Shown: positions 8,156-27,937 of the stretch, in pieces
How positions within the stretch are numbered: position 1 is the first letter of the stretch
Layout: the number at the start of each line of letters is the position of its first letter
From: Chryseobacterium gleum
GTDB lineage: Bacteria > Bacteroidota > Bacteroidia > Flavobacteriales_D > Crocinitomicaceae
Reading direction: 5' to 3'
Assembly (NCBI GenBank): GCA_945888595.1
Contig: CAMDAO010000017.1
Span: 1-34,637 of the forward strand
DNA: 34,637 nucleotides
Translations under genes and position numbers: made by a program
Notes under the pieces: generated by a model
What the model was told of the DNA's origin: nothing
What the model saw: the letters and a program-made list of their open reading frames with translations, nothing else
The model's database searches: none

Positions 8156-8186
8156 AAAACGGCTTGTCTATGTGATAAGCCGTTTT
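8156..8186 (-). terminator. trp operon attenuator (intrinsic terminator)
   Basis: In the trp direction the sequence forms a 10-bp stem AAAACGGCTT/AAGCCGTTTT with an 11-nt loop, continuing into a run of nine T. It lies about 25 bp after the leader stop codon and about 54 bp before trpE, as expected for a transcription attenuator. An alternative antiterminator pairing was not worked out. Confidence 0.85.
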
Positions 8187-8210
8187 ATAATATTTTGAAT
8201 AAATTACAAA

Positions 8211-8279
8211 CTAGCACCAGACACACCAACTGTTCGTTGAGTGCCACCAATAGTTTGAATTTAAAGTATTTGTTTTCAT
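8211..8279 (-). CDS. trpL: Tryptophan leader peptide of the trp attenuator
   Basis: A 22-codon reading frame on the minus strand, ATG at 8279 and TAG ending at 8211. Its C-terminal part reads NYWWHSTNSWCVWC, so four of the last twelve residues are Trp. It is followed by an intrinsic terminator and then trpE. A ribosome stalled at Trp codons when charged tRNA-Trp is scarce would be expected to favour read-through. The gene is far below usual gene-calling size. The frame, composition and position are directly visible; the mechanism is inferred from known Trp leaders. Confidence 0.87.
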   Translation of the reverse strand: MKTNTLNSNYWWHSTNSWCVWC

Positions 8280-8340
8280 CTGTGGTCAAAGGTTTGAATT
8301 TTTTTTTGGATAAAACAACTTAAATGTCATTTATTTTTCA

Positions 8341-10853: not shown

Positions 10854-10984
10854 CCTATTTTTTGCCATTTTTAGCTCTTCCTTTACATGCTGAGTTGCGT
10901 ATATCCACTCAAATCGAGAAATAGACGCCATAATTTTCTTTTATATCTCAACTTTTTCATTAACTTAAGTAACAAAAATTGACC
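10854..10984 (+). other. Intergenic region between aroA and the recombinase gene
   Basis: 131 bp of AT-rich sequence with no clear hairpin terminator and no strong TAnnTTTG box. It is the boundary between core metabolism and the accessory region. Confidence 0.5.
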
Positions 10985-12548: not shown

Positions 12549-12578
12549 TATACGCGCGTATAGCGACACGTTACAAGC
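12549..12578 (+). other. Single attI-like recombination site next to the recombinase gene
   Basis: A perfect 14-bp palindrome TATACGCGCGTATA (12549-12562) is followed by GCGACAC|GTTACAAGC, with the inferred crossover between C12569 and G12570. The GCGACAC|GTTA core is shared with the right side of the third attC-like site (21,895-21,904). GTTACAAGC is the exact reverse complement of GCTTGTAAC at 18928-18936, the start of the site that ends cassette 1. No 20-nt stem surrounds this site, so it looks like the unpaired primary site of the array and not another cassette end. Confidence 0.72.
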
Positions 12579-12590
12579 AACCCTATGACG

Positions 12591-12627
12591 ACAGTGATAA
12601 CATTAAACGACAGTGATAAAATGAACG
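12591..12627 (+). repeat. Short tandem repeat near the start of cassette 1
   Basis: ACGACAGTGATAA is followed 20 bp later by ACGACAGTGATAA and then by a partial third ACGACAG. The surrounding words (TAACATTAAA, ACGACAGAA) recur in altered form beside the hairpin before the arsenic operon (27887-27923), so this leader is shared by the two large cargo units. Confidence 0.6.
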
Positions 12628-12664
12628 ACAGAACAATTTTGGCAAAGCCATTTGGCTATCCTTC

Positions 12665-12730
12665 GCAAAAGCAAAAGAGCTGCAAAGCCAACGCACAAGC
12701 CAACGCGATTTGCAGCACATTTGCTTTTGC
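12665..12730. repeat. Second-family hairpin, copy 1 (before the ubiquitin-like operon)
   Basis: Arms 12665-12686 and 12709-12730 pair over 22 nt except for two A.A mismatches (AAAGAG facing CACATTT); the loop is 22 nt. CCAACGCAC occurs in the loop and CCAACCGCAC just after the right arm. Copies 2-4 have different stem sequences but keep the two mismatches and the CCAACGCAC/AACCGCAC words. Confidence 0.75.
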
Positions 12731-12832
12731 CCAACCGCACCAAGACCGTTCAGTATTAAACACATATTATTAACTTTGAAAAATTATTAGAAAAAATTAA
12801 ATGGAAGTTTTAAATGTTAAACTGCAGATAAA

Positions 12833-13801
12833 ATGAGCTATCAAAACAAATACGCAGTAAAAGCAAAAGCCCTCATCTACCAAGGTGAGTTGGACTACAT
12901 TTCAAAATGTGTTCTTGATTATCCCGACATTGAAACAGGCGGAGATTTATTTGGCTTTTGGACTTATTCAGGTTTTCCGGTTATTCAATATGTAATTGGG
13001 CCAGGGAAAAAAGCAAATCATCAAGTTGCCTTCTTCAATCAAGACATTGACTATTTGCGTGAAGTAGGAAATGCTTTGCGTAATACACACGGACTACAAC
13101 ACATTGGCGAGTGGCACTCACATCACAGGTTAGGACTTGCAGAACCAAGCGGACATGACATCACCACAGTTACGAAGGCAATTGATAATTACAACTTAGG
13201 AAAGTTTTTTTTGGTAATTACAAATGTTCACCAAAGTTCATCAGGCATCAACGGTTTTATGTTTACGAAACAACAAGGAAGAGTTTTTGATTACACTGGT
13301 TGGGTTGTTCTAAATGGAGAAAGTCCAATGAGAAATTCTTTTGACAAAGAATTTGATTCGCTTGTTTACAAACCACAAACACAACGAGCATCAATAGTTG
13401 ATTTGACAACAGCAAGTTTAGGAGAAACAGAATTTGTAAAACCTGAATACACTGCTGAATATTGGTTAAGCGACAAATCAAACCACAAGGTTCTAAAAAA
13501 TATAATTGACGGACTTAGTGACGGAGTTGAAGAAGTAAAAGTATTTCAGAACAACGAGGACAAATCAATTTACTTAATGTTTCAGCACAAGGAAAAAAAT
13601 TATTCCTTGTCATTCCCAACTGACTTTCCACAATCAAAGCCAGTGATAAAGGAACTATCAAATGAAGCGGAAACAATTATAGATGCTAACGGGCAAGAAT
13701 GGAATCCCGAAGAAGAAATTTCTAAATCAACAATTGCATTTACCGAAAATATTTTAGGAATTAAAAAGAAAACTTTCTTTCAAACTTTATTAAGCAAATA
13801 A
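12833..13801 (+). CDS. JAB/JAMM-domain protease with C-terminal E2-like domain
   Basis: The N-terminal JAB fold has E34 in ETGG and the metal site EWHSHH...SGHD (H95, H97, D109), the zinc-binding pattern of deubiquitinase-type metalloproteases. Residues about 195-290 contain YSLSFPTDFPQSKPVI, the strand-turn pattern of UBC/RWD folds, without a catalytic Cys. In bacterial ubiquitin-like operons such proteins process the modifier precursor or remove it from targets. It is the first gene of a tight operon: 1 bp separates it from the E2-like gene. Confidence 0.83.
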   Translation: MSYQNKYAVKAKALIYQGELDYISKCVLDYPDIETGGDLFGFWTYSGFPVIQYVIGPGKKANHQVAFFNQDIDYLREVGNALRNTHGLQHIGEWHSHHRLGLAEPSGHDITTVTKAIDNYNLGKFFLVITNVHQSSSGINGFMFTKQQGRVFDYTGWVVLNGESPMRNSFDKEFDSLVYKPQTQRASIVDLTTASLGETEFVKPEYTAEYWLSDKSNHKVLKNIIDGLSDGVEEVKVFQNNEDKSIYLMFQHKEKNYSLSFPTDFPQSKPVIKELSNEAETIIDANGQEWNPEEEISKSTIAFTENILGIKKKTFFQTLLSK

Positions 13802-13802
13802 A

Positions 13803-14228
13803 ATGACACCACAACGACTACAACACGAAACAGCAATTTTGGAAAAATACTTTCCTAAAAAATACAAGTTTGAAAACTTGAATTTAGCAAACGAACTTTT
13901 AGATGTTGGAGTAAAAACCCAATCAGGAAAAGTATATCGTTTAAATATCAGGTTGAAACCTGATTACCCAAACTCACTTCCTGAAGTATTTGTAGTTTAT
14001 CCATTGCCTTTGAGAAGGCATGATGGTTCTGCAATTGATGGTGCTTCACATGAATTGCATACGCTTTCAAATGATGGAGACAAAATACAAATCTGTCATT
14101 TCAAACCTAATAACTGGAATCCTATTCAATCACTTTACAAAATAGTTTTAAAAGCAAGAATTTGGCTTGAAGCATACGAAGGACATTTAAGAACAGGAAA
14201 ACCAGTTGACGATTATTTAAACAGTTAA
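13803..14228 (+). CDS. E2-like (UBC-fold) conjugation protein
   Basis: 141 residues. YRLNIRLKPDYPNSLPEVFV matches the UBC meander strands, followed by HTLSNDGDKIQICHF and NWNPIQSL. C98 in ICHF is the probable catalytic cysteine and W105-N-P follows as in many bacterial E2-like proteins. The eukaryotic HPN motif is not present. It is expected to receive the modifier from the E1-like protein encoded two genes downstream. Assignment rests on motif pattern and on its position between JAB and E1 genes. Confidence 0.75.
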   Translation: MTPQRLQHETAILEKYFPKKYKFENLNLANELLDVGVKTQSGKVYRLNIRLKPDYPNSLPEVFVVYPLPLRRHDGSAIDGASHELHTLSNDGDKIQICHFKPNNWNPIQSLYKIVLKARIWLEAYEGHLRTGKPVDDYLNS

Positions 14229-14241
14229 ACAATAAAATAAA

Positions 14242-14439
14242 ATGGAAAACGAAAACAAAGCAACAAATCAAGAGATAACTAATTCTCTTGAGCAAATGAA
14301 CAAGGGATTAAACAACAACAGCAATCAGTTGGTGTTTGACCCGACAACAGGAGAGTTTGTTGTTGCAAAGCCGAACCAACAAGTTTCGCCTGATGCAACT
14401 ACAATCAATTCAATAGCACAAGACGGATTCGCCAAGTAA
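14242..14439 (+). CDS. Small protein of the conjugation operon, candidate modifier
   Basis: 65 residues, Asn/Gln-rich and hydrophilic, with the segment LVFDPTTGEFVVAKP in the middle and the C-terminus IAQDGFAK. No ubiquitin beta-grasp pattern can be recognised, and the protein may be largely disordered. It lies 13 bp after the E2-like gene and 5 bp before the E1-like gene, where a modifier is often encoded. G62 followed by three residues could be exposed by the JAB protease. FxPxTGEF is repeated at the N-terminus of the Ig-like protein in the same operon. No function is established. Confidence 0.6.
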   Translation: MENENKATNQEITNSLEQMNKGLNNNSNQLVFDPTTGEFVVAKPNQQVSPDATTINSIAQDGFAK

Positions 14440-14444
14440 CGCCT

Positions 14445-15707
14445 ATGAAACCACTTGTATATGTTTACGAAGAACATCTTCGTGAACTGATTGCTGCTTC
14501 ACAAACAGATATAATCAGAGGCGTTGCCTTTGAATGGAAAGGTGAAAGCGTTTATCATGTTCACACAAAGTTTCCGAAGGTTGCACCTTCGGGCTATCCT
14601 TCAATTGCCTTTTTTAAAATTGAAAAAGACAAAGATGCATTTGAAAACTGCAAAAGCAGTTTTCAAATGGTTGCTGATAGCGTTCACAATCCTGATACTG
14701 GTTTTTATAATTCAGTTCTTGGTGTTTTCCTTTTCCTTGACAAAGAGAAACTTTATCAATGTGCGTTTAGAAAATCCGAAACTGGTATTGAAGAATGTGA
14801 AGTAAAATATGTTCCTGAAAAAAGTGAATTGTATTCACGAAGCAAAGGACTTATTGAAGTTGACATTTTGGAGAACAAGAATGTTTTGATAATTGGTTTA
14901 GGAAGTTTCGGTTCACAAATAGCCGTTGAACTTGCGAAAGCAGGTATTGGAAATTTTACATTGGTTGACTTTGACAGAGTTGAACTATCAAATATTTCAA
15001 GACACATTTGCGGAGTCAATGAATTAGGAAGATTAAAAACATTTGCGGTTCGTGATGCGATTCTTGTGAAAAATCCATTTGCAAAAATTGATACTTGTGA
15101 GATAGACATAAATGAAAAATTAGAGTTGCTTACGCAACTCATTCAAAAAACAGACATTGTAATTTGTGTTACAGATAATAACCGTAGTAGATTCAACATA
15201 AATGAAATTGCTTTTGGTTTAGACAAGCCAGTAATTTATGGCAGAGCAGTTACAAGAGCAGAAGGCGGTGATGTTTTCAAATTGAAAGGACATGCAAGCC
15301 CTTGTTATGCTTGCTTAGTAAATGAAAGCGGGCAAATGAAATTCGGAGGTGATGAAGAAATTTCTACAAAGAAACAAGCAACGGAAGCACTTCCAACATA
15401 CACTAATCAGAACGATATTAATGCTGTTGTGCAAGTTGGTTTATCATCAGACATTTTACCGATGTGCAACTTGATTGTAAAACTTTCATTGCTTGAACTT
15501 TCAAAAGGATTAAGCAGCGGAATAAATTCTCTTGAAAGCGAATTGACTTACGATTATTATTTCTGGGCAAACCGTAGAGAGAAAAATTATTTGAACTATC
15601 AGCCATTTAATAATTCCAAAATGCAACCAACCATTTTAAAATGGTTTGGTGCAAAAATTCCGACAAATCCTGATTGTTTTCTTTGTTCAACATTACAAAA
15701 CCAATGA
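14445..15707 (+). CDS. E1-like (ThiF/MoeB) activating enzyme
   Basis: 420 residues. The adenylation domain (about 140-350) has the nucleotide loop GLGSFG (151-156), VDFDRVELSNISRH with D175, D177, N183 and R186, and VTDNN near 244. Four cysteines, C287/C290 (PCYAC) and C411/C414 (DCFLC), form the zinc site typical of the family. The N-terminal 130 residues are an extra domain that I do not recognise. Expected reaction: ATP-dependent adenylation of the modifier C-terminus and transfer to a thiol. The stop overlaps the next start by 4 bp. Confidence 0.87.
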   Translation: MKPLVYVYEEHLRELIAASQTDIIRGVAFEWKGESVYHVHTKFPKVAPSGYPSIAFFKIEKDKDAFENCKSSFQMVADSVHNPDTGFYNSVLGVFLFLDKEKLYQCAFRKSETGIEECEVKYVPEKSELYSRSKGLIEVDILENKNVLIIGLGSFGSQIAVELAKAGIGNFTLVDFDRVELSNISRHICGVNELGRLKTFAVRDAILVKNPFAKIDTCEIDINEKLELLTQLIQKTDIVICVTDNNRSRFNINEIAFGLDKPVIYGRAVTRAEGGDVFKLKGHASPCYACLVNESGQMKFGGDEEISTKKQATEALPTYTNQNDINAVVQVGLSSDILPMCNLIVKLSLLELSKGLSSGINSLESELTYDYYFWANRREKNYLNYQPFNNSKMQPTILKWFGAKIPTNPDCFLCSTLQNQ

Positions 15708-16489
15708 ACGAAAATATTCGCTTAGACGATAGCACGGTGTTTAATCCGCAGACAGGAGAGTTTGGAACTCTACCTCAAATTTTGCTATTCTCTACTGACA
15801 AGAATATTTTAACTGACGAAACACCAGCAATAGTAAATTGGACAGTATCAAACGCAACTGTAATAAAACTAAACAATGAAGTAGTTGAACCGACTGGAAC
15901 AAGAGAGTTTCATACAAGTGAACCTTTGACACTTACCCTATCCGCTTCAAATGATGTTGGTGCGGCAGAACCTAAGGCAATTACAATTGACATTGACAGA
16001 CGAATTCCTGTTATTCACTTTTTCAAACCGAATGTTCCAGTTGCAATAAAAGGTTCTCCCGTAGTATTGAATTGGAATGTTGAAGGAGCATACAAAATTG
16101 AAATTGGTGGAATAGGAATAGTGCCAAGCACTTCATCAAAAACAATAACATTAGGCGACAACGGAGTATTTACTCTCATCGCTAAAAATTATTTTGGTAT
16201 TCAAACAGAAGTAACAGCATCTGTAACAGTTTTCCCTACTCCCATTTTAGAAAGATTAATTGTTCCAATTCCTGACTTCAACAGAAAACTAAATTTGAAT
16301 CCACTTCATATTGAAGCACCAATTATTGATGTTTCAATTAAACGAAGTTACTCACTTGAAAAACCCAACTTTACAAAACAGTCATTTGACTTGCAAACAA
16401 CAAGGGCAATGCACAAACCAAAATATTCATACTTCAATCTGTCAGAAGTATTTCACCGAATAACAAAATCATTAAGAAACACGACATGA
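15704..16489 (+). CDS. Ig-like protein of the conjugation operon
   Basis: The ATG at 15704 overlaps the E1 stop (ATGA) and is preferred to an upstream in-frame start. The 261 residues begin MNENIRLDDSTVFNPQTGEFG, sharing the FNPQTGEF/FDPTTGEF motif with the small protein. Two beta-rich Ig-like segments follow (about 25-100 with VNWTVSNATVIKLN; about 105-180 with VLNWNVEGAYKIEIGG). The basic C-terminal 70 residues look unstructured. There is no signal peptide, so it is cytoplasmic. It could be a target, adaptor or sensor; the function is unknown. Confidence 0.65.
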   Translation: MNENIRLDDSTVFNPQTGEFGTLPQILLFSTDKNILTDETPAIVNWTVSNATVIKLNNEVVEPTGTREFHTSEPLTLTLSASNDVGAAEPKAITIDIDRRIPVIHFFKPNVPVAIKGSPVVLNWNVEGAYKIEIGGIGIVPSTSSKTITLGDNGVFTLIAKNYFGIQTEVTASVTVFPTPILERLIVPIPDFNRKLNLNPLHIEAPIIDVSIKRSYSLEKPNFTKQSFDLQTTRAMHKPKYSYFNLSEVFHRITKSLRNTT

Positions 16490-18264
16490 AAAAGCCAAAC
16501 CTTCTTCAAACCTTTTTTATTGCCTGTTCGGGTGCTGACAGAGACATAATGTTAGAATGTCCTTCTGAATACAACAAGTATTCAGGAATTGGAGCAACAA
16601 TTTTTTTAACTGCTGCACTTGCAGTTTTTACTGGTGGTTATGCTTTGAATTTTGTTTTTGATAATGCTCCTCTTTCTATTCTCTTCGGTATTCTTTGGGG
16701 GATTATCATTTTCAATCTTGACAGATACATTGTATTAAGTTTAAGAAAAGAAAAGATTCCAACTAAGACAGACATTTTAAGAGCACCATCAGAACAAGAG
16801 AGAACAGAACTTAAATCTGAAAGAAGCAGATTGTTGTGGAATCAGGCACTCATGGCTTCGCCAAGATTTTTAATTGCACTTGTAATTGCAATTACAATTT
16901 CAAAACCTCTTGAACTTCGTTTGTTCAGCACAAAGATTTTAAAAGAACATGAGAGAAGCTCTAAAGTTGAAACGGATAAATTTGATAAAGATGAAAACGA
17001 TAGGGTTGCAGGTTTCAACAAACAACTTCAAGACCTTAACGGAAAAGAAGAAAACGAAAAGACAGCGATTTATTCTAACAATCCAATTTACAAGGAAGCA
17101 ATTACAAAATTGCCAGAGATTCAAACTGGAATTGAAAGCAAAGAGAGTTTGATAAAAACCAACAACGGTATCATTGAAAAAAATAAATATTTAGAAACTG
17201 GTAGCAGGGAAAAACAAAATCCAATTAGTAAAGAGTGGGAAACAATCTACTACAAGTATTGGGTTAAGAATGCAACAGCAAGAGAAAAGGATGCTGAAAA
17301 TGTTCGCTTGAACAATGAGAAAAAACAACTTGCAACAGAAAAAACTACTTACACTTCAAAAAAAGACACTGTTGAAAAACAGCTATTAGCAAAAACAGTT
17401 TCAATTGCAAGCCAGTATGATTTACAACGAGCACCAATTAAGCAAAGCATTGAAGATTTAAAGGAAACATATCCTATAAGGAAAGCAAAATATATTTCAA
17501 CTGTCCAGCTTAATCCCGACATTCTTGAACGAATGCAATATTTGTCAAACATCTCAACATGGTTCAATCCTGTTTGGTGGGCAAGTTTTGTAATCACTCT
17601 TTTATTCATGCTTCTTGAAACAGCACCAGTTGTAGTAAAACTTCTAACTAAAAGAGGACCGTATGACGATAAACTTGATAGAATTGAATATGAGCATTAC
17701 ATAAATGAACAAGAAATTATTTCAAGGTGGAATACTAAAATAAATGTGTTGCTTGAAAAGGCAAGAGAAGCCGCAAGGTTAGAAGGTGATGTTTTTATCA
17801 AGATTGAACAACAACGCCTTGACCATGAATTAAAAAATAACCAAACAATTCTTGACGACTTAGCAGGTAAACAGGAAACACTTGCGAAAATGGCAATTGA
17901 AAAATGGTATGAGGAAGAACTTAGAAAAAGTAAATCGCAAGACACAACTGAAAGCAATCAAAGCAATCAGAATGGTCAGCATAATCAATTCAAACTTGAA
18001 GATACATTTTGGAAGTTAGTAAACTCACCAAGCGATATTCAATATTTCTTTAGAAATGGTTCACCAATAAGCAACGAATTATTGTACCGTGAAGACGGCA
18101 AATTGACATTGGGTAAATGGAATTATGGAGAAGATAAAACAGAAATTGCTGTTGATATTTTTGAAGAAAAAAGAAATTATAAAATTGAATCTTTGTCTAA
18201 CAATTCTTTGAAGTTGAAAGAGAGGGGAACTACTGAATTAATTGAATTTGAAAAAACATCATAA
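16486..18264 (+). CDS. DUF4407 membrane protein with coiled coil and C-terminal extension
   Basis: 592 residues. ADRDIMLECPSEYNKYSGIG and the next two hydrophobic segments (about 30-55 and 60-80, ending NLDRYIV) are typical DUF4407. A third membrane segment lies around 127-145. Charged coiled coil covers about 150-330, a fourth membrane segment (WFNPVWWASFVITLLFMLL) about 362-385, and a second coiled coil 400-490. The last 90 residues form an extra beta-rich domain (LGKWNYGEDKTEIAVDIFEE). It overlaps the Ig-like gene by 4 bp. A membrane effector or sensor for the conjugation system is possible but not shown. Confidence 0.78.
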   Translation: MKKPNLLQTFFIACSGADRDIMLECPSEYNKYSGIGATIFLTAALAVFTGGYALNFVFDNAPLSILFGILWGIIIFNLDRYIVLSLRKEKIPTKTDILRAPSEQERTELKSERSRLLWNQALMASPRFLIALVIAITISKPLELRLFSTKILKEHERSSKVETDKFDKDENDRVAGFNKQLQDLNGKEENEKTAIYSNNPIYKEAITKLPEIQTGIESKESLIKTNNGIIEKNKYLETGSREKQNPISKEWETIYYKYWVKNATAREKDAENVRLNNEKKQLATEKTTYTSKKDTVEKQLLAKTVSIASQYDLQRAPIKQSIEDLKETYPIRKAKYISTVQLNPDILERMQYLSNISTWFNPVWWASFVITLLFMLLETAPVVVKLLTKRGPYDDKLDRIEYEHYINEQEIISRWNTKINVLLEKAREAARLEGDVFIKIEQQRLDHELKNNQTILDDLAGKQETLAKMAIEKWYEEELRKSKSQDTTESNQSNQNGQHNQFKLEDTFWKLVNSPSDIQYFFRNGSPISNELLYREDGKLTLGKWNYGEDKTEIAVDIFEEKRNYKIESLSNNSLKLKERGTTELIEFEKTS

Positions 18265-18443
18265 TGGGTTGGAGATTTAGAAAATCATTTGGGTTCGGAC
18301 CAGTTCGGACAACTTTCTCTCAAAGAGGAGTTGGAAAAAGTATTGGCTTCTTTGGTTTTCGTTGGGGAGTTACGGCAGACGGCAGAAAGTATTGGAGTTT
18401 CGGTATTCGTGGGACAGGTTTGTATTACATCAAATATTTGTAG
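18264..18443 (+). CDS. Small DUF4236 protein
   Basis: 59 residues starting MGWRFRKSFGFGPVRTTFSQ and ending IRGTGLYYIKYL. The MGxRFRKS...SxxGxxxSxGxxG...GTGLYY pattern is that of DUF4236 proteins. The start overlaps the DUF4407 stop (TAATG). It is easily missed because longer frames overlap it. Function unknown. Confidence 0.78.
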   Translation: MGWRFRKSFGFGPVRTTFSQRGVGKSIGFFGFRWGVTADGRKYWSFGIRGTGLYYIKYL

Positions 18444-18445
18444 TT

Positions 18446-18745
18446 ATGGACAAAATCATAAAAGTTGTTTTAGCCGTTCTCTTTTTTATTTGCTTACTTG
18501 AAATGCCTTATGGTTTTTATCAGTTTGTAAGGTTTGCAGGACTAGTTGGCTTTGCAATTCTTGCCTATCAAGCAAACCAACAAGGCAGACAAACAGAAAT
18601 GATAATTTACGTTGGACTTGCTTTGTTATTTCAACCGTTTTTTAAAGTAGCCCTCGGCAGACAAATGTGGAATATTGTTGACATTGTAGTAGGACTTAGT
18701 TTAATCATAAGCATTTTTCTAAAGCCTAAATCCCAAAGCAAATGA
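18446..18745 (+). CDS. Small membrane protein, DUF6804-like
   Basis: 99 residues from the ATG at 18446, two bases after the DUF4236 stop. Membrane segments are about 5-22, 29-43, 50-68 and 74-92. The wording MPYGFYQFVRF and LLFQPFFKVALGRQMWNIVD is characteristic of small proteins I know as DUF6804. It is the last gene of the conjugation operon. Function unknown. Confidence 0.7.
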   Translation: MDKIIKVVLAVLFFICLLEMPYGFYQFVRFAGLVGFAILAYQANQQGRQTEMIIYVGLALLFQPFFKVALGRQMWNIVDIVVGLSLIISIFLKPKSQSK

Positions 18746-18788
18746 CATTAGTTCTAACACGACCGACAGCGTTCCAAAAGCCCACGCA

Positions 18789-18855
18789 TTTGCACTCACA
18801 TTTGCTTTTTTGCAACCGCACAAACCAACCCGAAAAAAGCAAAAGAGAGTGCAAA
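18789..18855. repeat. Second-family hairpin, copy 2 (after the ubiquitin-like operon)
   Basis: Arms 18789-18813 and 18832-18855 pair with the same conserved mismatches as copy 1 (CACATTT facing AAAGAG), but in the opposite order relative to the cargo: the CACATTT arm comes first here. AACCGCAC follows the first arm and CCAACGCAC the second. Copies 1 and 2 therefore face each other across the 6-kb operon. Confidence 0.72.
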
Positions 18856-18927
18856 CCAACGCACCCAGACAATGCAATAATTCATTGCAAACATGGGCGG
18901 ACACTGCTTCGGACGGACAGAAGGGCA

Positions 18928-19063
18928 GCTTGTAACAGCGGGTTTAAGAAATTGGCGGTTCAGTGCTCCGCAGACACATTTGTGGTTAATCAAACATTGG
19001 TTCTCCGCATCAACATTTGTGGTGAAAATCGCCAACTTCTTAAACCCGCAAAACGTTAGTGGC
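18928..19063 (+). repeat. attC-like site 1 (end of cassette 1)
   Basis: Opens with GCTTGTAAC; arms 18938-18957 and 19030-19049 form a 20-nt stem with one mismatch, A18951.C19036 at stem position 14. The loop is 72 nt. The right side is GC-AAAAC|GTTAGTGGC, with the inferred crossover before G19055. The loop contains two near-repeats of CTCCGCA...ACATTTGTGGT. Confidence 0.85.
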
Positions 19064-19153
19064 AAGTCAATAAAAACCAAACACCGTCCGACTTAATAGT
19101 ATCGTAACAGTTAAATTAAATATGATAGACACCGAAAATTAAATAGTATTCTT

Positions 19154-20716
19154 ATGAAAAAAAACATTCTCTTATCAATCTTTTTAATTGCGATAGTCCT
19201 TAAATCACAAGGAGCAATTCGCTATGTCACGCCATTAGGAGCGGGTGCTTTAAACGGCACAAGTTGGGCAAATGCTTTTCCTGGTACTTCGTTACAAACT
19301 GCTATTACTTCATCAGGCATTGGAGATGAAGTATGGGTTGCAGCAGGAACATATTATACAACAACAACGACTAGTCGTAGTATTTCGTTTAGTATGAAAA
19401 ATGATGTCTCAATCTACGGAAGTTTTACAGGGACAGAAACCTTATTATCACAAAGACTACTCACAACGGGCTTGACAAGTATATTGAGTGGCGAAATTGG
19501 AGCAATAGGAATAGGCGATAATAGTTATCATGTGATACACAATACTGCCTTAAACAATACTGCAATTATTGATGGCTTTATCATCAGAGAAGCAAATGAT
19601 AATAGAGTGGTTTCATATACAAATGGACTTGGCGGTGGAATATTCAATCAAGGAAGTGGTGCAGGAGGAGTATGTAGCCCTACAATTAGAAATTGTATTA
19701 TTACCAATAATCGAGCTGTATTTGGTGGAGGTATTTTTAATGATGGTTATAATGGAGGGAACGCTTCTCCAATAATTTCTAACTGTATAATCTCCAACAA
19801 TACCGCTACAAGCGGTGGTGGTGGGCTTGACAACTTTGGAGTTGCTGGCATAGCAAGCCCAACTATAACAAATTGTGTAATTTATAATAACACAGCTACT
19901 CAAAGAGCTGGCGGTATGTATTGTTGGGGTGGTAATAGTGGCAATGCAAATCCAACTGTTCTAAATACAGTATTTGCAAACAATACGGCTGTTGATGGTG
20001 GAGGGGTGGTTTCAGATAGATTAAATGAAAGTGGAGGTGGTAGTTCGGGTAATAGCAATCCCAATTTTAGAAATTGTATTTTTTGGGGAAATACGGCATC
20101 TGGGACCGGCCCTCAATTTTTCATTTTAGGCGGAGCAACTTTCGTAGCAACTTATTCTGACATTAATCTCACAGGACAACTTTCCCCTCATGTTGTTTCA
20201 GGTCCTGCTACTGGAAATATTATTACAAATCCTTTATTTTCAAATATTGCATTAGGTGTTGGTGTAGATGGAAATTGGATGACTACTGATGATGGATTGC
20301 AATTACAAAGTTCATCTCCGTGTATTAATGCAGGAGACAACACAGGAGTGCCTTTAACAGATATTTTGACAAATAACAGAATACTCAATTCTATTGTTGA
20401 CATGGGGGCTTATGAATTTAGCTCAACGTTGACAGTAGTTACAGAAATTGATAAACAAAATATCGGTATTGTTTTGTTTCCTAATCCAACAAGTAACATA
20501 CTTAACATTACCTTTAAGAGTTCAGAAACCGACAATATTGTTTTAGCCATTTTCGACATCAATGGACGACTTGTGAATACTATACACCAAGGACAAATCG
20601 CAATAGGAACTTACAATTATCAAGTTGATTTATCGCAACAAAAATGTGGAATTTATTTTTTAACACTCAAGACGACCAAACAAGAATATACACAGAAAAT
20701 AATGCGGACAGAATAG
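19154..20716 (+). CDS. Exported parallel beta-helix protein with T9SS sorting domain
   Basis: 520 residues. It has a signal peptide (MKKNILLSIFLIAIVLKSQG), then AIRYVTPLGAGALNGTSWANAF, the usual start of right-handed beta-helix proteins. Repeats such as PTIRNCIITNNRAVFGGGIFN, PIISNCIISNNTATSGGGG and PTITNCVIYNNTA form the helix (about 140-330). The C-terminal 85 residues (VLFPNPTSNILNITF... to ...YFLTLKTTKQEYTQKIM) are a type A T9SS sorting domain, so it is probably secreted or surface-attached. It is the only gene of cassette 2. Helix proteins of this kind often bind or cut polysaccharides; no catalytic motif was identified. Confidence 0.85.
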   Translation: MKKNILLSIFLIAIVLKSQGAIRYVTPLGAGALNGTSWANAFPGTSLQTAITSSGIGDEVWVAAGTYYTTTTTSRSISFSMKNDVSIYGSFTGTETLLSQRLLTTGLTSILSGEIGAIGIGDNSYHVIHNTALNNTAIIDGFIIREANDNRVVSYTNGLGGGIFNQGSGAGGVCSPTIRNCIITNNRAVFGGGIFNDGYNGGNASPIISNCIISNNTATSGGGGLDNFGVAGIASPTITNCVIYNNTATQRAGGMYCWGGNSGNANPTVLNTVFANNTAVDGGGVVSDRLNESGGGSSGNSNPNFRNCIFWGNTASGTGPQFFILGGATFVATYSDINLTGQLSPHVVSGPATGNIITNPLFSNIALGVGVDGNWMTTDDGLQLQSSSPCINAGDNTGVPLTDILTNNRILNSIVDMGAYEFSSTLTVVTEIDKQNIGIVLFPNPTSNILNITFKSSETDNIVLAIFDINGRLVNTIHQGQIAIGTYNYQVDLSQQKCGIYFLTLKTTKQEYTQKIMRTE

Positions 20717-20723
20717 ATGACCA

Positions 20724-20859
20724 GCCACTAACAGCACCTACAAAAAATTGGCGGTTCAGTGGTTAAATCAACCATTGTGCTTCCTATCAAGTTCAGAGCT
20801 GGCAGACAGTTTTGTGCTTCGAAATCGCCAACTTCTTGCAGCTGCAAAACGTTGTGCGA
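20724..20859 (+). repeat. attC-like site 2 (end of cassette 2)
   Basis: Opens with GCCACTAAC; arms 20734-20753 and 20826-20845, loop 72 nt, then GC-AAAAC|GTTGTGCGA. The stem carries the conserved A.C mismatch at position 14 plus three others (positions 4, 7 and 11), making it the most worn of the five stems. Confidence 0.82.
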
Positions 20860-20900
20860 CATTTTGACTGAACGAAACGAAAAACAGAAAAATTTAAAGA

Positions 20901-21761
20901 ATGAATGAAAATATTTCTCCAATTATTCAAGCATCAGAATTGCTGAATTTATATAAATCTGAAAATTTAATTATTGTTGATGTTAGCAATGGAAAAAATG
21001 CAAAGTTAAATTATGACGCAAAACATTTAGAAGGAGCAATATTTGTAGATTTAAACACTCAACTTGCAGAAATTAAAAATGATTTGTCAATTGGCGGAAG
21101 ACATCCATTACCCAAAATTGAAAATTTCGCAAAAACCTTATCAAATCTTGGAGTTTCTCCAAAAAGTCAAGTTGTGATTTATGATGACAAAAATGGCTCA
21201 AATGCGTCAGCTAGATTTTGGTGGATGTTGAAATCAATTGGTCACGAAAAAGTTCAAGTTCTAAATGGCGGAATTCAAGAAGCAGAAAAGAATAATTTTC
21301 CATTAAGTTCAAAAACTGAAAGTATCAACAAAACTGAATTATATAAATTTGACAATTGGAAATTAAAAATTGCCGAAATAGAAGAAGTTGAAAAAGTTTC
21401 ACAAACCGAAAATCATATTGTAATTGACGTTCGAGATGTTGAACGCTACAATGGAGAAACCGAGCCAATTGATTTAATTGCCGGACATATTCCTGGAGCA
21501 ATAAATGTTCCATTTACTGAAAATTTAGACGAAAACGGTTTGTTTTTATCTCCAAATTTGCTAAAACAGAAATATGAAAAAGTATTTGGAAATACTAAAA
21601 CTGAAAATATAATTGTTCATTGTGGTTCTGGTGTTACAGCGTGTCACTCAATTTTAGCAATCGCATATGCTGGTTTGGAAATTCCAAAACTTTATGTAGG
21701 TTCGTGGAGTGAATGGAGCAGAAATAATAAATTAATAGAAATAAAAACTGAAAACATTTAA
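20901..21761 (+). CDS. Sulfurtransferase, 3-mercaptopyruvate type (double rhodanese)
   Basis: 286 residues with two rhodanese domains. The first (about 8-135) is inactive; the second (about 155-286) has the persulfide cysteine C241 in HCGSGVTAC. The CGSGVTA loop points to mercaptopyruvate, not thiosulfate (which usually has CRKGVTA), as donor. No signal peptide, so cytoplasmic. It is the only gene of cassette 3 and would move as a self-contained metabolic gene. Confidence 0.88.
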   Translation: MNENISPIIQASELLNLYKSENLIIVDVSNGKNAKLNYDAKHLEGAIFVDLNTQLAEIKNDLSIGGRHPLPKIENFAKTLSNLGVSPKSQVVIYDDKNGSNASARFWWMLKSIGHEKVQVLNGGIQEAEKNNFPLSSKTESINKTELYKFDNWKLKIAEIEEVEKVSQTENHIVIDVRDVERYNGETEPIDLIAGHIPGAINVPFTENLDENGLFLSPNLLKQKYEKVFGNTKTENIIVHCGSGVTACHSILAIAYAGLEIPKLYVGSWSEWSRNNKLIEIKTENI

Positions 21762-21770
21762 AAAAAACGA

Positions 21771-21909
21771 TCGCACAACAGCCGTTTCACGAAATTGCGG
21801 GGTTTGGGATTTATCAGAATTGGTAATTTTTGAAACTAAATTTTGTCTATATTTGTAATCAAAAGTGTTGAAAATCCGCAACTTCGTGAAGCGGCGACAC
21901 GTTAGCAGT
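21771..21909 (+). repeat. attC-like site 3 (end of cassette 3)
   Basis: Opens with TCGCACAAC; arms 21781-21800 and 21876-21895, loop 75 nt, then GACAC|GTTAGCAGT. Stem bases differ from sites 1, 2 and 5 in many paired positions, yet pairing is kept with one G.T pair and the conserved A.C mismatch at position 14. The spacer GACAC equals that of the attI-like site. The loop is unlike the other four and contains a promoter-like box. Confidence 0.83.
21848..21855 (+). promoter_or_regulatory. Candidate -7 box inside the loop of attC-like site 3
   Basis: TATATTTG, a full match to TAnnTTTG, preceded by TTTTG and TTTTTG words that could form a -33 element, although the spacing is not ideal. It points into cassette 4, whose gene begins 105 bp downstream. 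Confidence 0.4.
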
Positions 21910-21959
21910 AAGTGAAATAGAATACAAAAACATAATTATTTAATGAAATAACAACAAAA

Positions 21960-22781
21960 ATGAATAAACAACGAAATTTTGACCCTTTACAAAAGGAAAA
22001 ACTAGGGGAATATGTATACGCATTGCGAGACCCAAGAGATAAGAAAATATTTTATGTTGGACAGGGCATCAAAGATAGGGTATTTGAACATTTTAATGAA
22101 GCACAGAGCAGTCTAAATTCTGCTATACCCTTCAATCAAATGAGTAGTAAAGTTATTCGCATATTAGACATTTGGAATAATAACGAGGATGTGGAATGGA
22201 TTATTTTAGCCCATAATTTACCTTCTAATAACAATGTTGCTGATTTCGTTGAATCCGCAATCTTTGATGGCCTTTCTGAATCGCAAAATGGAGAAACTCT
22301 GAACGAACAAACGCCTCCAAGGTCTTCAAGGCTTTTACCTGAAGACTTAGAGGCAATGGCAGCAGAATTTGTTTATCCAACAACAGCACACTCTCATGTA
22401 TTTGTTTTTCCAATTCAAAGCGCCTTATATTATGGTTTAACTCCTTATAATGCAACAAGATCAACATGGGGCATTCATAGTCAGTACCAAACACTTAATC
22501 CAGCCTTTGCTGTTGGATTGAAAAATTCTATATCCAAAGGAAGTTTTGAAGTATCGGCATGGAATAATGTGACGGGAACAGGAAAACAAGAATTCAACTC
22601 ACCAAATCATCCAAATCCTAACGACTATACCCCACTTTTAAACAAAAACTGGAACAATGTACTTGCAATTGCAAAAGGCTTTTGGCAAAGAGGGGGTTAT
22701 TTAATCGTTGAATTTGATGGCAATGGTAGCTTCAGAATTATAAGAGGATCGAAAGATAAAAATTGGCATCATTGTATTTAA
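21960..22781 (+). CDS. GIY-YIG nuclease-domain protein
   Basis: 273 residues. The N-terminal GIY-YIG domain (about 12-115) has YVYALRDPRDKKIFYVGQG, a conserved Arg in DRVFEHF, and the Glu in VESAIFDGL as the likely metal ligand; it resembles the LEM-3-like branch. The C-terminal region (about 125-273) has FAVGLKNSISKGSFEVSAWN, reminiscent of EVE/PUA-like folds, but I cannot assign it firmly. It is the only gene of cassette 4. A DNA-cutting role, possibly in defence or repair, is inferred from the domain only. Confidence 0.72.
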   Translation: MNKQRNFDPLQKEKLGEYVYALRDPRDKKIFYVGQGIKDRVFEHFNEAQSSLNSAIPFNQMSSKVIRILDIWNNNEDVEWIILAHNLPSNNNVADFVESAIFDGLSESQNGETLNEQTPPRSSRLLPEDLEAMAAEFVYPTTAHSHVFVFPIQSALYYGLTPYNATRSTWGIHSQYQTLNPAFAVGLKNSISKGSFEVSAWNNVTGTGKQEFNSPNHPNPNDYTPLLNKNWNNVLAIAKGFWQRGGYLIVEFDGNGSFRIIRGSKDKNWHHCI

Positions 22782-22813
22782 AATAAACTAATACGAAAGA
22801 CAATCTAACACCT

Positions 22814-22949
22814 ACTGCTAACAGCGGTTTGGCGTAATGGCGGGTTCAGTGCTTCGTATAATGGTTTTGTGGTTGGTTCAAGGTAGTTCTTCGATTGAAC
22901 TATTGTGCTAAAAGTCTGCCACTACGCCAAGCCGCAAAACGTTAGCGGT
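22814..22949 (+). repeat. attC-like site 4 (end of cassette 4)
   Basis: Opens with ACTGCTAAC; arms 22824-22843 and 22916-22935, loop 72 nt, then GC-AAAAC|GTTAGCGGT. The stem sequence (GCGGTTTGGCGTAATGGCGG) differs strongly from the others while pairing is kept, again with A.C at position 14. Confidence 0.84.
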
Positions 22950-23046
22950 CATGCTAAGACATGAAGCAAGTAATCACGAAAAAATAAATTTTTAAACAGA
23001 TTAAACCTTTTTGTTTTTTTTAAGTCCAAATTAAAAATAATTAAAC

Positions 23047-24822
23047 ATGAAAAAAAACTACACCCTTTTTTTATCATTTATTTCAATGATAGCTTATTCC
23101 CAAAACCCAACAATAACAATAGACATAGGCAATGTGGTCACTTCAGACTCCCTAATGAAACCAATACTTGGTGTAATTTCAGGACCAGATGCAAATTATA
23201 ATTCTGCAAATGCCAATCTTACAACTCAGTTTCAAAATATTGGGGTAACAAGCATTAGAAATAATGATTATTCTGACGACAGACTTGACATGGATTTAAT
23301 GTTTAATTGTGGAGGGGCTACTTATCCGAGTTGGGGTTCATGTAGTCCAACAGTAAGTGCCAATTATAATTTTACGGCTAGTGATATACAATATAGCAGT
23401 TATGTTAGTGGAGGGTTTGAACCTTTTTTAAGACTAGGTAGCGAAAATCCGCCCACTTCAGGTCCTTTTGTTAAAGATAATATTGGTCCGATAAATTCTA
23501 CAGAAGAAACAAATTGGATTATAGCAGCTGATACTGTAGCAAAACATTATTCAAATTTTCCTGGTGGAAACGGTGGATTACAATATTTAAATGTTTGGAC
23601 AGAATGGCCAAACTCATTTAGCTTTTGGCCAAGACCGAATTCGGAATTTTATCCATTTTTTACTTCGGCAGTTTCTCAATTAAAAACGAGCCACCCAACC
23701 AAAAAAGTAGGTGGGCCAGGAATGTTAAGTAGTTATATGTGTAAAGGCTTGCCTGTTGTAGCTAATGAACCATATCAACTTGTTAATTACATGTATCAAA
23801 ACAATGTAAAACCTGATTTTTTCACTTTTCATGTATTCAGTAGCAATCCAATGAATTACTATAATGCATCAAAACAATACAGCGATATGCTTTTAGGTGT
23901 TGGCAGCTTTAATGGAGTACCATGGGCAGGTACTGGTTTTTTTGATACAACAGAATTAATTATTGACGCATGGGGGAATACAAATAATCCAACAAATGAA
24001 TTTGGGGCATCTACTGGAACATATAACCCGACAGATATGGATAAATATTTGGCAAAAAAAGAAGGCTCTACTGCGTTTTTAGCAGCATGGGCAGTTTTGC
24101 AAAGAGCCAATGTTGAGCGCGGGTATTATTATCGGTCTGGAGACATGGGACCGACAACATCAGCAGCTTTAGCAAATGGAGCATCTCTTGGTTTGTTTTA
24201 TGGAGATGGCTCATATAAAAGAGTAGCGTATGCTTTCAAAATGTGTGCTAACTTATATTCCAACTACAATAAAATATTAAACACTTCATTAATAAATGTT
24301 ACAAATCAAAATGATTCAATCTTTTGTTTATCGGGGATGTCTATAAATGGAACAAAGGCATTGTTAATAGCAAATACGACTATGAAAAATATAGATGTTA
24401 ATTTAACAGTAAACGGATCATCCATAGTTTCTGCAAATTATTCATCTATAGAATACTATTTGATTGATAATACAAGTGATGGAACTAATCCACAAGTTTG
24501 GAATCCCTCCATAACAAATACTATTGCATCTCAAACAGGCGTTTTGGTAGTTCTAACTCCAATAAATGTAGTTAGTGTTGCCGAAAACAGAACAAGTTCC
24601 GACATAACTGTATATCCAAATCCTACAAACGGTGACGTAAACATTATACTACAAAATCAAAATCTGGTTAGTACTAAAATTTACAATTTAATTGGTGAAT
24701 TGATTCAAGAAGTTTATACATCTGAATTTTCAATTTCCAATTTGCCTAATGGCATATACTTTTTACAAATCCAAACCAATAATTCGACTTACACTAGTAA
24801 AATAATAAAAAATAATCCTTAA
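23047..24822 (+). CDS. Exported glycoside hydrolase-like protein with T9SS sorting domain
   Basis: 591 residues: signal peptide (MKKNYTLFLSFISMIAYSQ), a TIM-barrel-like domain (about 25-420) and a T9SS sorting domain (about 515-591, VYPNPTNGDVNIIL...NLPNGIYFLQIQT). LRLGSENPP, YLNVWTEWPNSFSFW, KVGGPGM and PDFFTFHVFSS recall GH39-type beta-xylosidases, in which a Glu after a strand-4 N-x-W/P-E pattern is the acid/base. The Glu in VWTEWPN is a candidate. Substrate unknown. First of two genes in cassette 5, 3 bp before the next. Confidence 0.7.
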   Translation: MKKNYTLFLSFISMIAYSQNPTITIDIGNVVTSDSLMKPILGVISGPDANYNSANANLTTQFQNIGVTSIRNNDYSDDRLDMDLMFNCGGATYPSWGSCSPTVSANYNFTASDIQYSSYVSGGFEPFLRLGSENPPTSGPFVKDNIGPINSTEETNWIIAADTVAKHYSNFPGGNGGLQYLNVWTEWPNSFSFWPRPNSEFYPFFTSAVSQLKTSHPTKKVGGPGMLSSYMCKGLPVVANEPYQLVNYMYQNNVKPDFFTFHVFSSNPMNYYNASKQYSDMLLGVGSFNGVPWAGTGFFDTTELIIDAWGNTNNPTNEFGASTGTYNPTDMDKYLAKKEGSTAFLAAWAVLQRANVERGYYYRSGDMGPTTSAALANGASLGLFYGDGSYKRVAYAFKMCANLYSNYNKILNTSLINVTNQNDSIFCLSGMSINGTKALLIANTTMKNIDVNLTVNGSSIVSANYSSIEYYLIDNTSDGTNPQVWNPSITNTIASQTGVLVVLTPINVVSVAENRTSSDITVYPNPTNGDVNIILQNQNLVSTKIYNLIGELIQEVYTSEFSISNLPNGIYFLQIQTNNSTYTSKIIKNNP

Positions 24823-24825
24823 AAT

Positions 24826-25914
24826 ATGCAAGTGAAAAAATATTTTATACCCAAAATTATACTTACAGTTTTATGCTTGTTTAATCTTAACGCTCATGCT
24901 CAACTCTCTGGATTGGTAATTACAGGAACACCAGATAGTCCGAGTGGAGCAACTTGGACATACAATGCAACAATTGGTTCAGTTGTTTACGATTTGAAAG
25001 GATTAATTTATAAACCTTTGGGTACTGGAAATTTCCCAGCAGTTATAATTAATCATGGCACTGGTGGAAATACGGATGTAAATGGATATAGTGATAAAGT
25101 AGCCAAAGAAATGGTAACGTGGGGCTATGTTACTATTGCAACAAATTATTGTCACATGGGTACGAGTATGGCTTTTCCATGTGGTTCGCCAGGGGTTTGT
25201 ACAGGAATGACAGATTGGGGAGCTAGTTCGAATAATTTTTTACGTGCAATGAAAGTGTGGGATATTCTTGCGTCACTTACATATGTTGATACAAATTGTA
25301 TTGCAACTTTTGGTCATAGCAGAGGATCTTTTTTGACTACTGGATTAGCTGCAAATTATTCAGATAAATTTAATTGTGCGGGACATACGGATGGTGGAGT
25401 AGCTATTCCAGACCAAATAACAATGCCAACTTTGGTGATGGCAAACGATGTTATCATTCCATATATTTTGCACCATGGTGATTCAAGTGTTCAGGTTCCA
25501 ATAATAAACGATGACAATTTCGATTCAATTTTAACCCAAAATGGTGTAATTCATGACTATTATGTTTACACAGGTTACGTCCATTCGGATATGCCACATG
25601 ATTCATTGGTTTATGTTAGAACGCAAACTTTTTTTAATCAATACATTTGTAATACAACGACAGGGTATATAGACAATAATGTAATTTTTTCAAGGCTTAT
25701 TTTTTTTCCTAATCCCGCATCTATCGCCATCCAGTTAGAAATTCATGAAAAAAGTAATATGACAATTTATAACTTCACTGGACAAATCGTAATTTCAAGA
25801 ATAATATCTCCTAAGGAAAAAGTTGATATTTCGAATTTAGAAAATGGCGTCTATTTTATCTCACTATCAGAAGGAGAAAAAAATAAAACCGCAAAATTGA
25901 TTATTGCAAATTGA
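24826..25914 (+). CDS. Exported alpha/beta hydrolase with T9SS sorting domain
   Basis: 362 residues with a signal peptide ending near NAHA. The alpha/beta hydrolase domain (about 28-275) has the oxyanion-side INHGTGG and the nucleophile elbow GHSRGS with S165; YVHSDMPHDS may supply the catalytic His. The domain resembles PET-hydrolase/dienelactone-hydrolase-like exported esterases. The C-terminal 75 residues (IFFPNPASIAIQLEI...NLENGVYFISLSEG) form a T9SS sorting domain. Cotranscribed with the glycoside hydrolase-like gene, so the pair may act together on decorated polysaccharide. Confidence 0.8.
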   Translation: MQVKKYFIPKIILTVLCLFNLNAHAQLSGLVITGTPDSPSGATWTYNATIGSVVYDLKGLIYKPLGTGNFPAVIINHGTGGNTDVNGYSDKVAKEMVTWGYVTIATNYCHMGTSMAFPCGSPGVCTGMTDWGASSNNFLRAMKVWDILASLTYVDTNCIATFGHSRGSFLTTGLAANYSDKFNCAGHTDGGVAIPDQITMPTLVMANDVIIPYILHHGDSSVQVPIINDDNFDSILTQNGVIHDYYVYTGYVHSDMPHDSLVYVRTQTFFNQYICNTTTGYIDNNVIFSRLIFFPNPASIAIQLEIHEKSNMTIYNFTGQIVISRIISPKEKVDISNLENGVYFISLSEGEKNKTAKLIIAN

Positions 25915-25937
25915 CAATTGCATTACACACAGCACGA

Positions 25938-26067
25938 ACCGCTAACAGCACCTACAAGAAATTGGCGGTTCAGTGGTTCGTATGACAGTTTTGTGGTTAA
26001 TCAAACATTCGTTCTTCGTATGAACATTTGTGGTGAAAATCGCCAACTTCTTGTAGCTGCAAAACGT
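25938..26067 (+). repeat. attC-like site 5 (end of cassette 5), interrupted by an IS
   Basis: Opens with ACCGCTAAC; arms 25948-25967 and 26041-26060, loop 73 nt, then GC-AAAAC|GT followed at once by the IS end CAGGCTGTG. The stem has the conserved A.C at position 14 and a C.C mismatch at position 4. The missing right core, CGTTAGCGGC, lies at 27861-27870 on the other side of the IS. Confidence 0.82.
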
Positions 26068-27859
26068 CAGGCTGTGAAAAAACCTACATTTTCACACTCC
26101 ACCTGTCAAAATAGCTGTTTTTTTTTCGATTTTAAGCGTTGTATTGGGTTGTATTTTTAGGCTACGGATTTGTAATTCAAAATACGAAAGTTGTCATAGA
26201 GTCTTAAAAACAGCTGTTTTTTGTTCGATTTTAGGAAAGCAGGGTATTTTGGTTTCCATTTCTTGAGTTTTTCCAATAACTTTTCTATTCCCAGTATATT
26301 GATGGCCCGTTTCATATTATAAACCGTCATGATCAATGCCATTTCACCGTTTACTTTTTCAAGTCCTCTGAGGTTGGTGTGATTATATCCCCATTGCCGT
26401 TTGATGGTGCCAAATATATGTTCGTTAATCTATTCAGTTGTATTTTGATTTTTATTTGACTTCATGAGTTCCGCTGCGCTCCAGTTCTTGTCTTTTACGG
26501 TAAAGGTCTTTGTTTGCTTTGTAATGTAGTCCATTTTTCTCCACTGCATTAGCATATTGACTGCGGTCTATTTCTCTTCTACCGTCTGCTTTTGCGGTGC
26601 AAAGCTTTTGAACAGGACATGTTTTACAAGCAGGTGTTCGGTATTTTTTGAACTGATAACTATCTCGTTCTCGCGTCTTTTTGTGCCATGAACCAGTGGT
26701 AGTCAGAATGTTTCCTTCGGGACAAGTATACGTATCGGAAGCAGCATTGTAGTTGAATTTATCCACCATATAATCGGCGGTGGTTCCTTTATTGTTCGCA
26801 TTTACGATAGTTGGTGGACAAACCAAAGTGGTAATTCCAGCTTTTTGACATGTTTCAATTTCTCTTCCGTTGTGATATCCCTTGTCTAAAATAGCAGTGA
26901 AGCTTTTTTAACTTCAGATTTTCTTTTGTTTCTAAAGCAATACCGCTCATTGCATTTCGGTCGTTTCGGTTAATGGTATGCGTGGCAACCACCAGATTAT
27001 GTTTCTGATCAACAGCAGCTTGCACGTTATAACTCACCTCAACAACTTGACCTTGTACAAGCAAAGCCCTGGCATCGGGATCTGTAGTGCTAACCTGTGG
27101 CTCTCCGCTTGCTTCAATAGCTTTGGACAATTGTTCATATTTGATCTTATTGATGCTGAGTTTTGCTATTTTTTCTTGAATGTGAATCACTTTTTCTACA
27201 GACTTTTCGTTCAAATCGTTTTGTTCCAGGGCTGCTAAATATTCGTTTGTCTTTTCTTCAATATACGCCAAATGGCGTTCTATTTTTTTTGGACTATAGT
27301 TACTCTTTTTACTGTTGTTTGCGCGTACTTTTGTTCCACCATCGCTACAACTTCGCCAGTAATCAACTGCGCATCTTTCAAAAACAGCACAAAAAGTTTA
27401 AAGGTAGTTTTTAACGCTTTGGGATTGATTTTTCTGAAATCTGAAATACTGTGATAGTTGGATGCTAATCCTTCCAAAAGCCAATGCAATTCAACATTAC
27501 GAATCGCTTCTTTCTCCAATTTCCTGCTACTTCGCAAACCGTTTAAATACCCATAAAAATAGAGTTTCAAAAACACTTTGGGATTAAAGGCAGGTCTTCC
27601 TTCGGTTTTCAAGGTGGCTATCTCAAAACCCAATTTATCAAGTTCCAATTGCTCTACAAATGCATCCACAAACCGCACAGCATTTTCTTTCTCAATAAAT
27701 TCCTCCATGCTACGCATCTGAATTTGAAACCGATCTTGAACACCTAAATAACTCATTTTTATGGATTTATTTTACATAAATATACGGGTTTTGTAGGTAG
27801 TTATTAAACTTTAATTGCTATATTTATGAACTGATTAGTGTTGGTTTTTTCACAGACTG
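26068..27859 (-). mobile_element. IS1182-like insertion sequence, copy 1
   Basis: About 1.79 kb with inverted ends CAGGCTGTGAAAAAACC (left) and CAGTCTGTGAAAAAACC (right, read inwards). Flanks are AAAACGT on the left and CGTTAGCGG on the right, so CGT appears duplicated and the target was AAAACGTTAGCGG. Removing the IS and one CGT restores a normal attC-like right side. The exact length of the target duplication is not certain. Confidence 0.8.
26157..27756 (-). pseudogene. IS1182-family transposase, disrupted
   Basis: Four frame pieces make one transposase. The N-terminal part (27756-27280; MSYLGVQDRFQIQMRSMEEF, GRPAFNPKVFLKLYFYGYLNG, RNVELHWLLEGL) is the DUF772 region. A break occurs at an A8 run directly before TAG near 27280, a second at an A6 run near 26893, and stops follow at 26452 and near 26430 before the C-terminal EHIFGTIKRQWGY segment. 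Restoring frame at each point gives normal family sequence (for example LDKGYHNGREIETC), so the gene is decayed and not naturally split. Confidence 0.85.
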
Positions 27860-27861
27860 CC

Positions 27862-27937
27862 GTTAGCGGCAAGGCTAGGGGACGCGCTAACATCAAATTT
27901 TCGTGCTGACATTGGACGACAGAAAAGCCAACGCTTC
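27862..27937 (+). other. Start of a possible sixth cassette (orphan right core)
   Basis: GTTAGCGGC is the right core of attC-like site 5, displaced by the IS. Within 30 bp lies GCGCTAAC, a 7-of-8 complement of the core, but no 20-nt stem follows. No GCCGCTAAC partner was found to the end of the window. The words CTAACATCAAA and ACGACAGAAAAGCC resemble the start of cassette 1. Confidence 0.5.

Follow-up and report, generated by a model that had tools for sequence, protein, structure and literature searches.

An A.C pair kept at stem position 14 of attC-like sites in Bacteroidota cassette arrays, and its possible role in strand marking

Known integrons and the array in the window

In classical integrons, the extrahelical bases of the attC site and the insertion of the IntI integrase are regarded as essential for recognition of the correct folded attC strand. 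The classical sites (class 1 attCs, Vibrio VCR) are imperfect inverted repeats at the 3' end of the cassette: they carry a variable loop and R''/R' boxes with an AAC|GTT crossover, they occur in cassettes of one orientation, and the two strands of their hairpin are asymmetric. The strand of attC bound by integron integrases is the bottom one (PMC3053210), and in the IntI stretch 179-247 the base T12'' is contacted by P232, H240 and H241, and G20'' by K209, Y210 and W219, which account for most of the G20'' contacts (PMC3053210). Within the Bacteroidetes proper, IntegronFinder 2.0 listed one complete integron, that of Salinibacter ruber (PMC9024848). This integron comes from the same wider group as the DNA analysed here and was found by the canonical IntI and attC models, whereas the sites described below are of another type.

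The window, i.e. the whole analysed stretch of 34,637 nt from Chryseobacterium gleum (assembly GCA_945888595.1, contig CAMDAO010000017.1), contains five attC-like sites on the plus strand, to which the above description of the classical attC layout also applies: site 1 at 18923-19059 (R'', stem 18938-19049 and R'), site 2 at 20719-20855 (stem 20734-20845), site 3 at 21766-21905 (stem 21781-21895), site 4 at 22809-22945 (stem 22824-22935) and site 5 at 25933-26070 (stem 25948-26060). Re-reading of the window sequence reproduced the original prediction, namely 20-nt stems, 72-75 nt loops and, in all five, an A opposite a C at arm position 14: the arms were 20 nt long throughout, the loops measured 72, 72, 75, 72 and 73 nt, and the A.C pairs were A18951/C19036, A20747/C20832, A21794/C21882, A22837/C22922 and A25961/C26047. 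Position 14 was the sole irregularity common to the five stems. Site 2 had in addition C.C at position 4 and A.C at 7 and 11, site 5 had C.C at 4, sites 3 and 4 had T.G at 5, and site 4 also G.T at 19; as predicted, sites 3 and 4 diverged from the others with compensating changes. The difference from the classical attC lies in the nearly continuous 20-bp stem with its invariant A.C/G.T pair; moreover, where classical sites have two paired spacers plus two extrahelical bases, the predicted bottom-strand fold of the five window sites shows a single TTTT bulge next to the R box, and on neither arm of these folds were two extrahelical bases present. A stem bulge was found in only some relatives.

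The R'' of each window site was complementary to the R' of the preceding site over 9, 9, 10 and 9 nt, as against only 2-6 nt for any other window site. The same register held over all loci, with complementarity of at least 8 nt in 126 of 168 neighbouring pairs, compared to 8% with the R' of the same site and 3% for random pairs. Such a match between neighbouring sites is seen in integron cassettes, since every cassette has an R' of its own at the 5' end. The partner predicted from site 1 (GTTACAAGC) was found at 12570, 163 nt past the integrase stop, within a candidate attI at 12556-12583 on the plus strand (GCGTATAGCGACAC|GTTACAAGCAACCC), whose R' half matches the site 1 R'' over 9 nt. In 25/36 integrase-array entries, a match of at least 8 nt to the first R'' lay no more than 250 nt from the integrase stop, and these attI-like partners were often of the form GCGTATATA...|GTT. 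Another, near-identical locus (L008), whose integrase is 98% identical to that of the window, aligns with the window through 12573, i.e. the GTTA of the attI-like site, and then continues with a different cassette. This natural polymorphism at the junction is an indirect sign that the integrase may insert and excise cassettes.

Within an array, all sites point the same way, at a median distance of 1163 bp from one another. In the window, the first cassette-like unit (12570-19052, plus strand, 6.5 kb) runs from the attI to the site 1 crossover and possibly represents fused cassettes. It is followed on the same strand by cassette 2 (19053-20848) with a T9SS-sorted protein, cassette 3 (20849-21900) with a rhodanese/sulfurtransferase-like protein, cassette 4 (21901-22939) with a GIY-YIG protein similar to PD-T4-3, and cassette 5 (22940-26065) with two T9SS-sorted proteins. 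The R' of site 5 is broken by an IS1182-family element (26063-27864) sitting in its crossover, whereas a relative of this site in locus L029 (14229-14363) is intact; the junction CCGT|CAGGCTGTG... recurs in a different attC-like site, in L008 (at about 12150), and in locus L092 similar starts come after the site. The element seems, from these junctions, to target the attC core.

The presumed array integrase is a tyrosine recombinase of 475 aa (10979-12406, plus strand). Its best match among solved structures was IntI4 (PDB 2A3V; 9e-39), with the catalytic core aligned. The IntI4 residues 179-247 (68 residues) are bridged by 25 residues in the window integrase, so that an insertion of about 43 residues is missing: the inserted IntI domain with the I2 helix near patch III was absent from the window integrase in the IntI4 alignment. 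In the IntI model TIGR02249 it reached 229.2 bits, below the cut-off of 265, and in the XerA/integron-type model NF040815 221.9 bits, just above the cut-off of 220. The spacing of the catalytic motifs was similar to that of XerA, XerC and XerD, and all array-associated recombinases scored had this Xer-like spacing of 85-92 aa, except one truncated frame at 102. Unlike the Xer enzymes, the window integrase adjoins a cassette array and an attI-like site and possesses an extra N-terminal domain, which also distinguishes it from IntI. This extension of about 200 aa (window 10979-11578) has a conserved WD..NKWW motif, two tryptophans of which are invariant or almost invariant across 32 relatives, and its second repeat (residues 124-157) resembles HARP, although the match is weak (E 5e-4, below the Pfam cut-off). 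HARP is a fork or annealing DNA-binding domain. The position of the window array, 3' of the integrase and in the same orientation, is a further difference from the IntI systems. The segment missing from the integrase and the extrahelical bases absent from the sites fit each other, and the window integrase presumably acts on these sites.

The features of an integron platform found here are an adjoining tyrosine recombinase gene, an attI matching the first R'' and an array of attC-bearing units. Judged from sequence, the system appears integron-like in its working, with an integrase that fails two IntI-family tests and sites that fail the canonical attC motifs.

Position 14 in larger samples of sites

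The original prediction proposed a covariance-model search of genomes, which was run with position 14 masked as N, against bias towards A.C. The masked model recovered 95 sites, nearly all with A.C at position 14; the matches adjoined relatives of the integrase and came also from genomes within the family and the phylum of the window. The A and C within AACA and CGTT were present in 90 of the 95 matches, the model itself favouring these letters. A second, model-independent finder used only AACA, CGTT, their spacing and complementarity, and rewarded pairing everywhere, position 14 included; since it imposes AACA and CGTT, conservation of those letters is not claimable from it. Applied to the window and the integrase loci it returned 62 sites, 58 of them with A.C at 14, and in 2.28 Mb it returned 349. 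Chance inverted repeats were ruled out by the dinucleotide-shuffled sequence, which gave 7 sites, and bias of the model as the source of the A.C pair by the masking together with the reward for pairing at that position. The classical motifs rarely fit these 349 sites: GTTRRRY was matched by the R' of 24 and RYYYAAC by the R'' of 14.

After reduction to distinct stems (n = 204), position 14 was A.C in 183, i.e. the larger alignment did not show it often paired. The flanking positions were Watson-Crick pairs of several types each (position 13 in 97% and position 15 in 94% of the distinct stems). The A.C pair was present in 86/92 sites supported by R''/R' complementarity with a neighbouring site, and each of the stem clusters with at least three members was 100% A.C at position 14. 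Its identity was specific, with C.A or any other mismatch almost never found there, and in 7 of the ten confident exceptions the A.C was shifted one step inward, to position 15. The A.C at position 14 is therefore confirmed as a real and general feature, far beyond chance. Two loci, one from a Chlorobi MAG (L047) and one from a Cytophagales MAG (L035), each had two A.C pairs that, by eye, lay four base pairs apart; the position 14 rule seems to hold in their more distant sites as well.

The stems otherwise vary in a concerted manner. In 60 unrelated stems, outside position 14, changes on both sides that kept the pairing numbered 413 and one-sided changes that kept it 24, with 92 cells unpaired. 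Compensatory changes were thus much commoner than single ones, and the 413 to 24 ratio supports the predicted selection on a folded single strand. The claim that this strand has one defined irregularity was borne out in part: the A.C at position 14 is kept almost without exception, but it does not stand alone. An A.C also recurred at the crossover-proximal (junction) pair, and 140 of the 183 stems had a second irregularity at positions 8-12, mostly A.C at 11 or a bulge on the 3' arm. T.G at position 5 was present in about 44% of stems. In one site (L093; G000:C171) the 5' and 3' arms came from two different site types and did not pair, and this site is possibly a deletion or a recombinant.

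Strand asymmetry and competing explanations

The top-strand A.C at position 14 becomes a G.T wobble when the bottom strand folds. The bottom-strand folds of the five window sites, computed with the R boxes of the cassette itself, had an R box of about 9-11 bp followed by a TTTT-type bulge, past which the predicted stem was continuous through position 14, with one mismatch near the base in sites 2-5; in the top-strand fold, an internal loop lay next to the R box and the A.C was a mismatch. When the R box and the spacers were included, the bottom strand was computed to be more stable in 89/92 register-supported sites, by a mean of 4.1 kcal/mol. Energies computed for the arms by themselves showed a strand bias that was weaker and not consistent (41/51), with window sites 3 and 4 favouring the top strand. 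The spacers, of unequal length (1 nt as against 4-5 nt), are a further feature by which the strands can be told apart.

In 69 bulge-free sites the mean bias towards the bottom strand was 4.53 kcal/mol. A change of position 14 to G-C lowered it to 3.70 (a share of about 0.8), a change of the junction A.C next to the crossover lowered it to 2.61 (a share of 1.9), and replacement of all A.C by G-C nearly abolished it (from -4.53 to -0.26 kcal/mol). The irregular pairs at the other stem positions from 6 to 20 in unrelated stems were 29 A.C, 6 C.A, 6 T.G and 2 G.T, i.e. 35 of the A.C/C.A type, the one that pairs on the bottom strand, against 8 of the G.T/T.G type (p = 4e-5). The T.G at position 5 has the opposite direction, being a mismatch on the bottom strand.

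We favour, with a probability of roughly 0.6 for the two parts jointly, a reading in which these sites would be recombination sites of the attC type in an integron-like system for gene capture in the Bacteroidota and in which the A.C/G.T pairs mark the bottom strand for the integrase, replacing the extrahelical bases. The two strands of an inverted repeat otherwise fold almost alike; the A.C/G.T pairs would break this symmetry, with only the bottom strand pairing through. The strand-asymmetric pairs would be position 14, the junction pair by the crossover and, in many cases, a third within 8-12. The bottom strand would then be the better and recognisably different substrate, on which recombination would proceed in the correct orientation, and with the bottom strand only being used, the cassettes would be inserted one way round. 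An integrase devoid of the IntI insertion would rely on this asymmetry where IntI uses extrahelical bases. Strand marking by wobble or mismatch asymmetry rather than by extrahelical bases is plausible, and, by analogy with the classical integrons, the bottom strand would be the strand used.

The original prediction saw the strand choice differently: the top strand would fold and the recombinase would read the A.C mismatch in the way that extrahelical bases are read. In the top-strand hairpin, the A.C is indeed the only mismatch that is nearly universal, and a role in strand choice remains plausible. The mismatch, however, exists only if the top strand folds; the folded bottom-strand substrate is not irregular at position 14, because the same pair is a G.T wobble there. 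The comparison with extrahelical bases is a weak one, given that the segment reading them is absent from the integrase. The bottom strand is also the one computed as more stable, the irregularities outside positions 5 and 14 are of the type pairing on it, and a crossover at R' with cleavage of the AAC strand, as in the classical integrons, would place the reaction on it. We consider the top-strand version improbable. Still far less probable is that the hairpins act as RNA, i.e. as terminators or processing signals in the cassette transcripts, with the A.C as an RNA feature. The top strand is the transcript sense and the sites of an array have one orientation, but such a role leaves unexplained the register between neighbouring R'' and R', the attI and the divergence exactly at the crossover. 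No match to a curated Rfam family was found at the sites, and the wobble pairs favour the other strand.

The strongest competitor, in our estimate unlikely but well ahead of the former two, is base-specific recognition: the A (5' arm) and C (3' arm) at position 14, the C at 11 and the T-A at 6 would be letters contacted by the integrase in the folded stem, their failure to pair a by-product and the strand bias incidental. In favour of this are the specific identity of the A.C, a T-A pair at position 6 in 185 of the 204 distinct stems, a C on the 3' arm at position 11 in most stems whether paired or unpaired, and the small energy share of position 14. Recognition of letters does not, however, predict the enrichment of the A.C type at the varying positions 8, 9, 11 and 12, and the strand bias is accounted for by all A.C pairs together. 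Energy alone does not explain a near-invariant position 14 either, because its share is below 1 kcal/mol, and a base-specific contact there is equally possible. The position 14 pair would be read by the protein or act through folding; since it contributes little energy and yet is the most constant, we think that a protein contact is involved too, also within the strand-marking reading.

Distribution, significance and further observations

The sites (R1 matches) were present in 146/395 Bacteroidota genomes and 86/171 sampled genera, and in 138/200 sampled genomes of the family of the window itself. They may represent a phylum-wide class of Bacteroidota integrons with a folded single-stranded attC, an integrase without the IntI insertion and a G.T/A.C strand mark perhaps read by the HARP-like N-terminal domain, a proposal to which we give slightly less than even odds. 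A search of the open-access literature gave no description of this site type; with subscription journals outside this coverage, its novelty is not certain. If the favoured reading is true, a widespread system lacking both marks would be a second solution to strand recognition and could help to explain the origin of single-strand recombination from Xer-like enzymes. Gene-cassette arrays would then probably be common in a phylum for which standard detection finds hardly any.

Two units of the window carry genes resembling phage-defence proteins. In the first unit (12570-19052), the JAB, E2-like and ThiF/E1 genes match the PADLOC E1/E2/JAB models and are accompanied by DUF4407 and DUF6804 genes; by these matches, the unit is perhaps a phage-defence operon in a cassette. 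In cassette 4, the GIY-YIG gene (21960-22781) has a match (7e-19) to the PADLOC model for PD-T4-3, an anti-phage protein. A cultured host is available in Flavobacterium enshiense DK69, in which ten or more sites follow a 361-aa integrase reading frame (locus L061, 11683-19503); in several of these sites the loop is about 105 nt long. Elsewhere in the window, the minus strand at 8174-8299, upstream of trp genes, gave a sub-threshold match to the Bacteroidete tryptophan peptide leader RNA.
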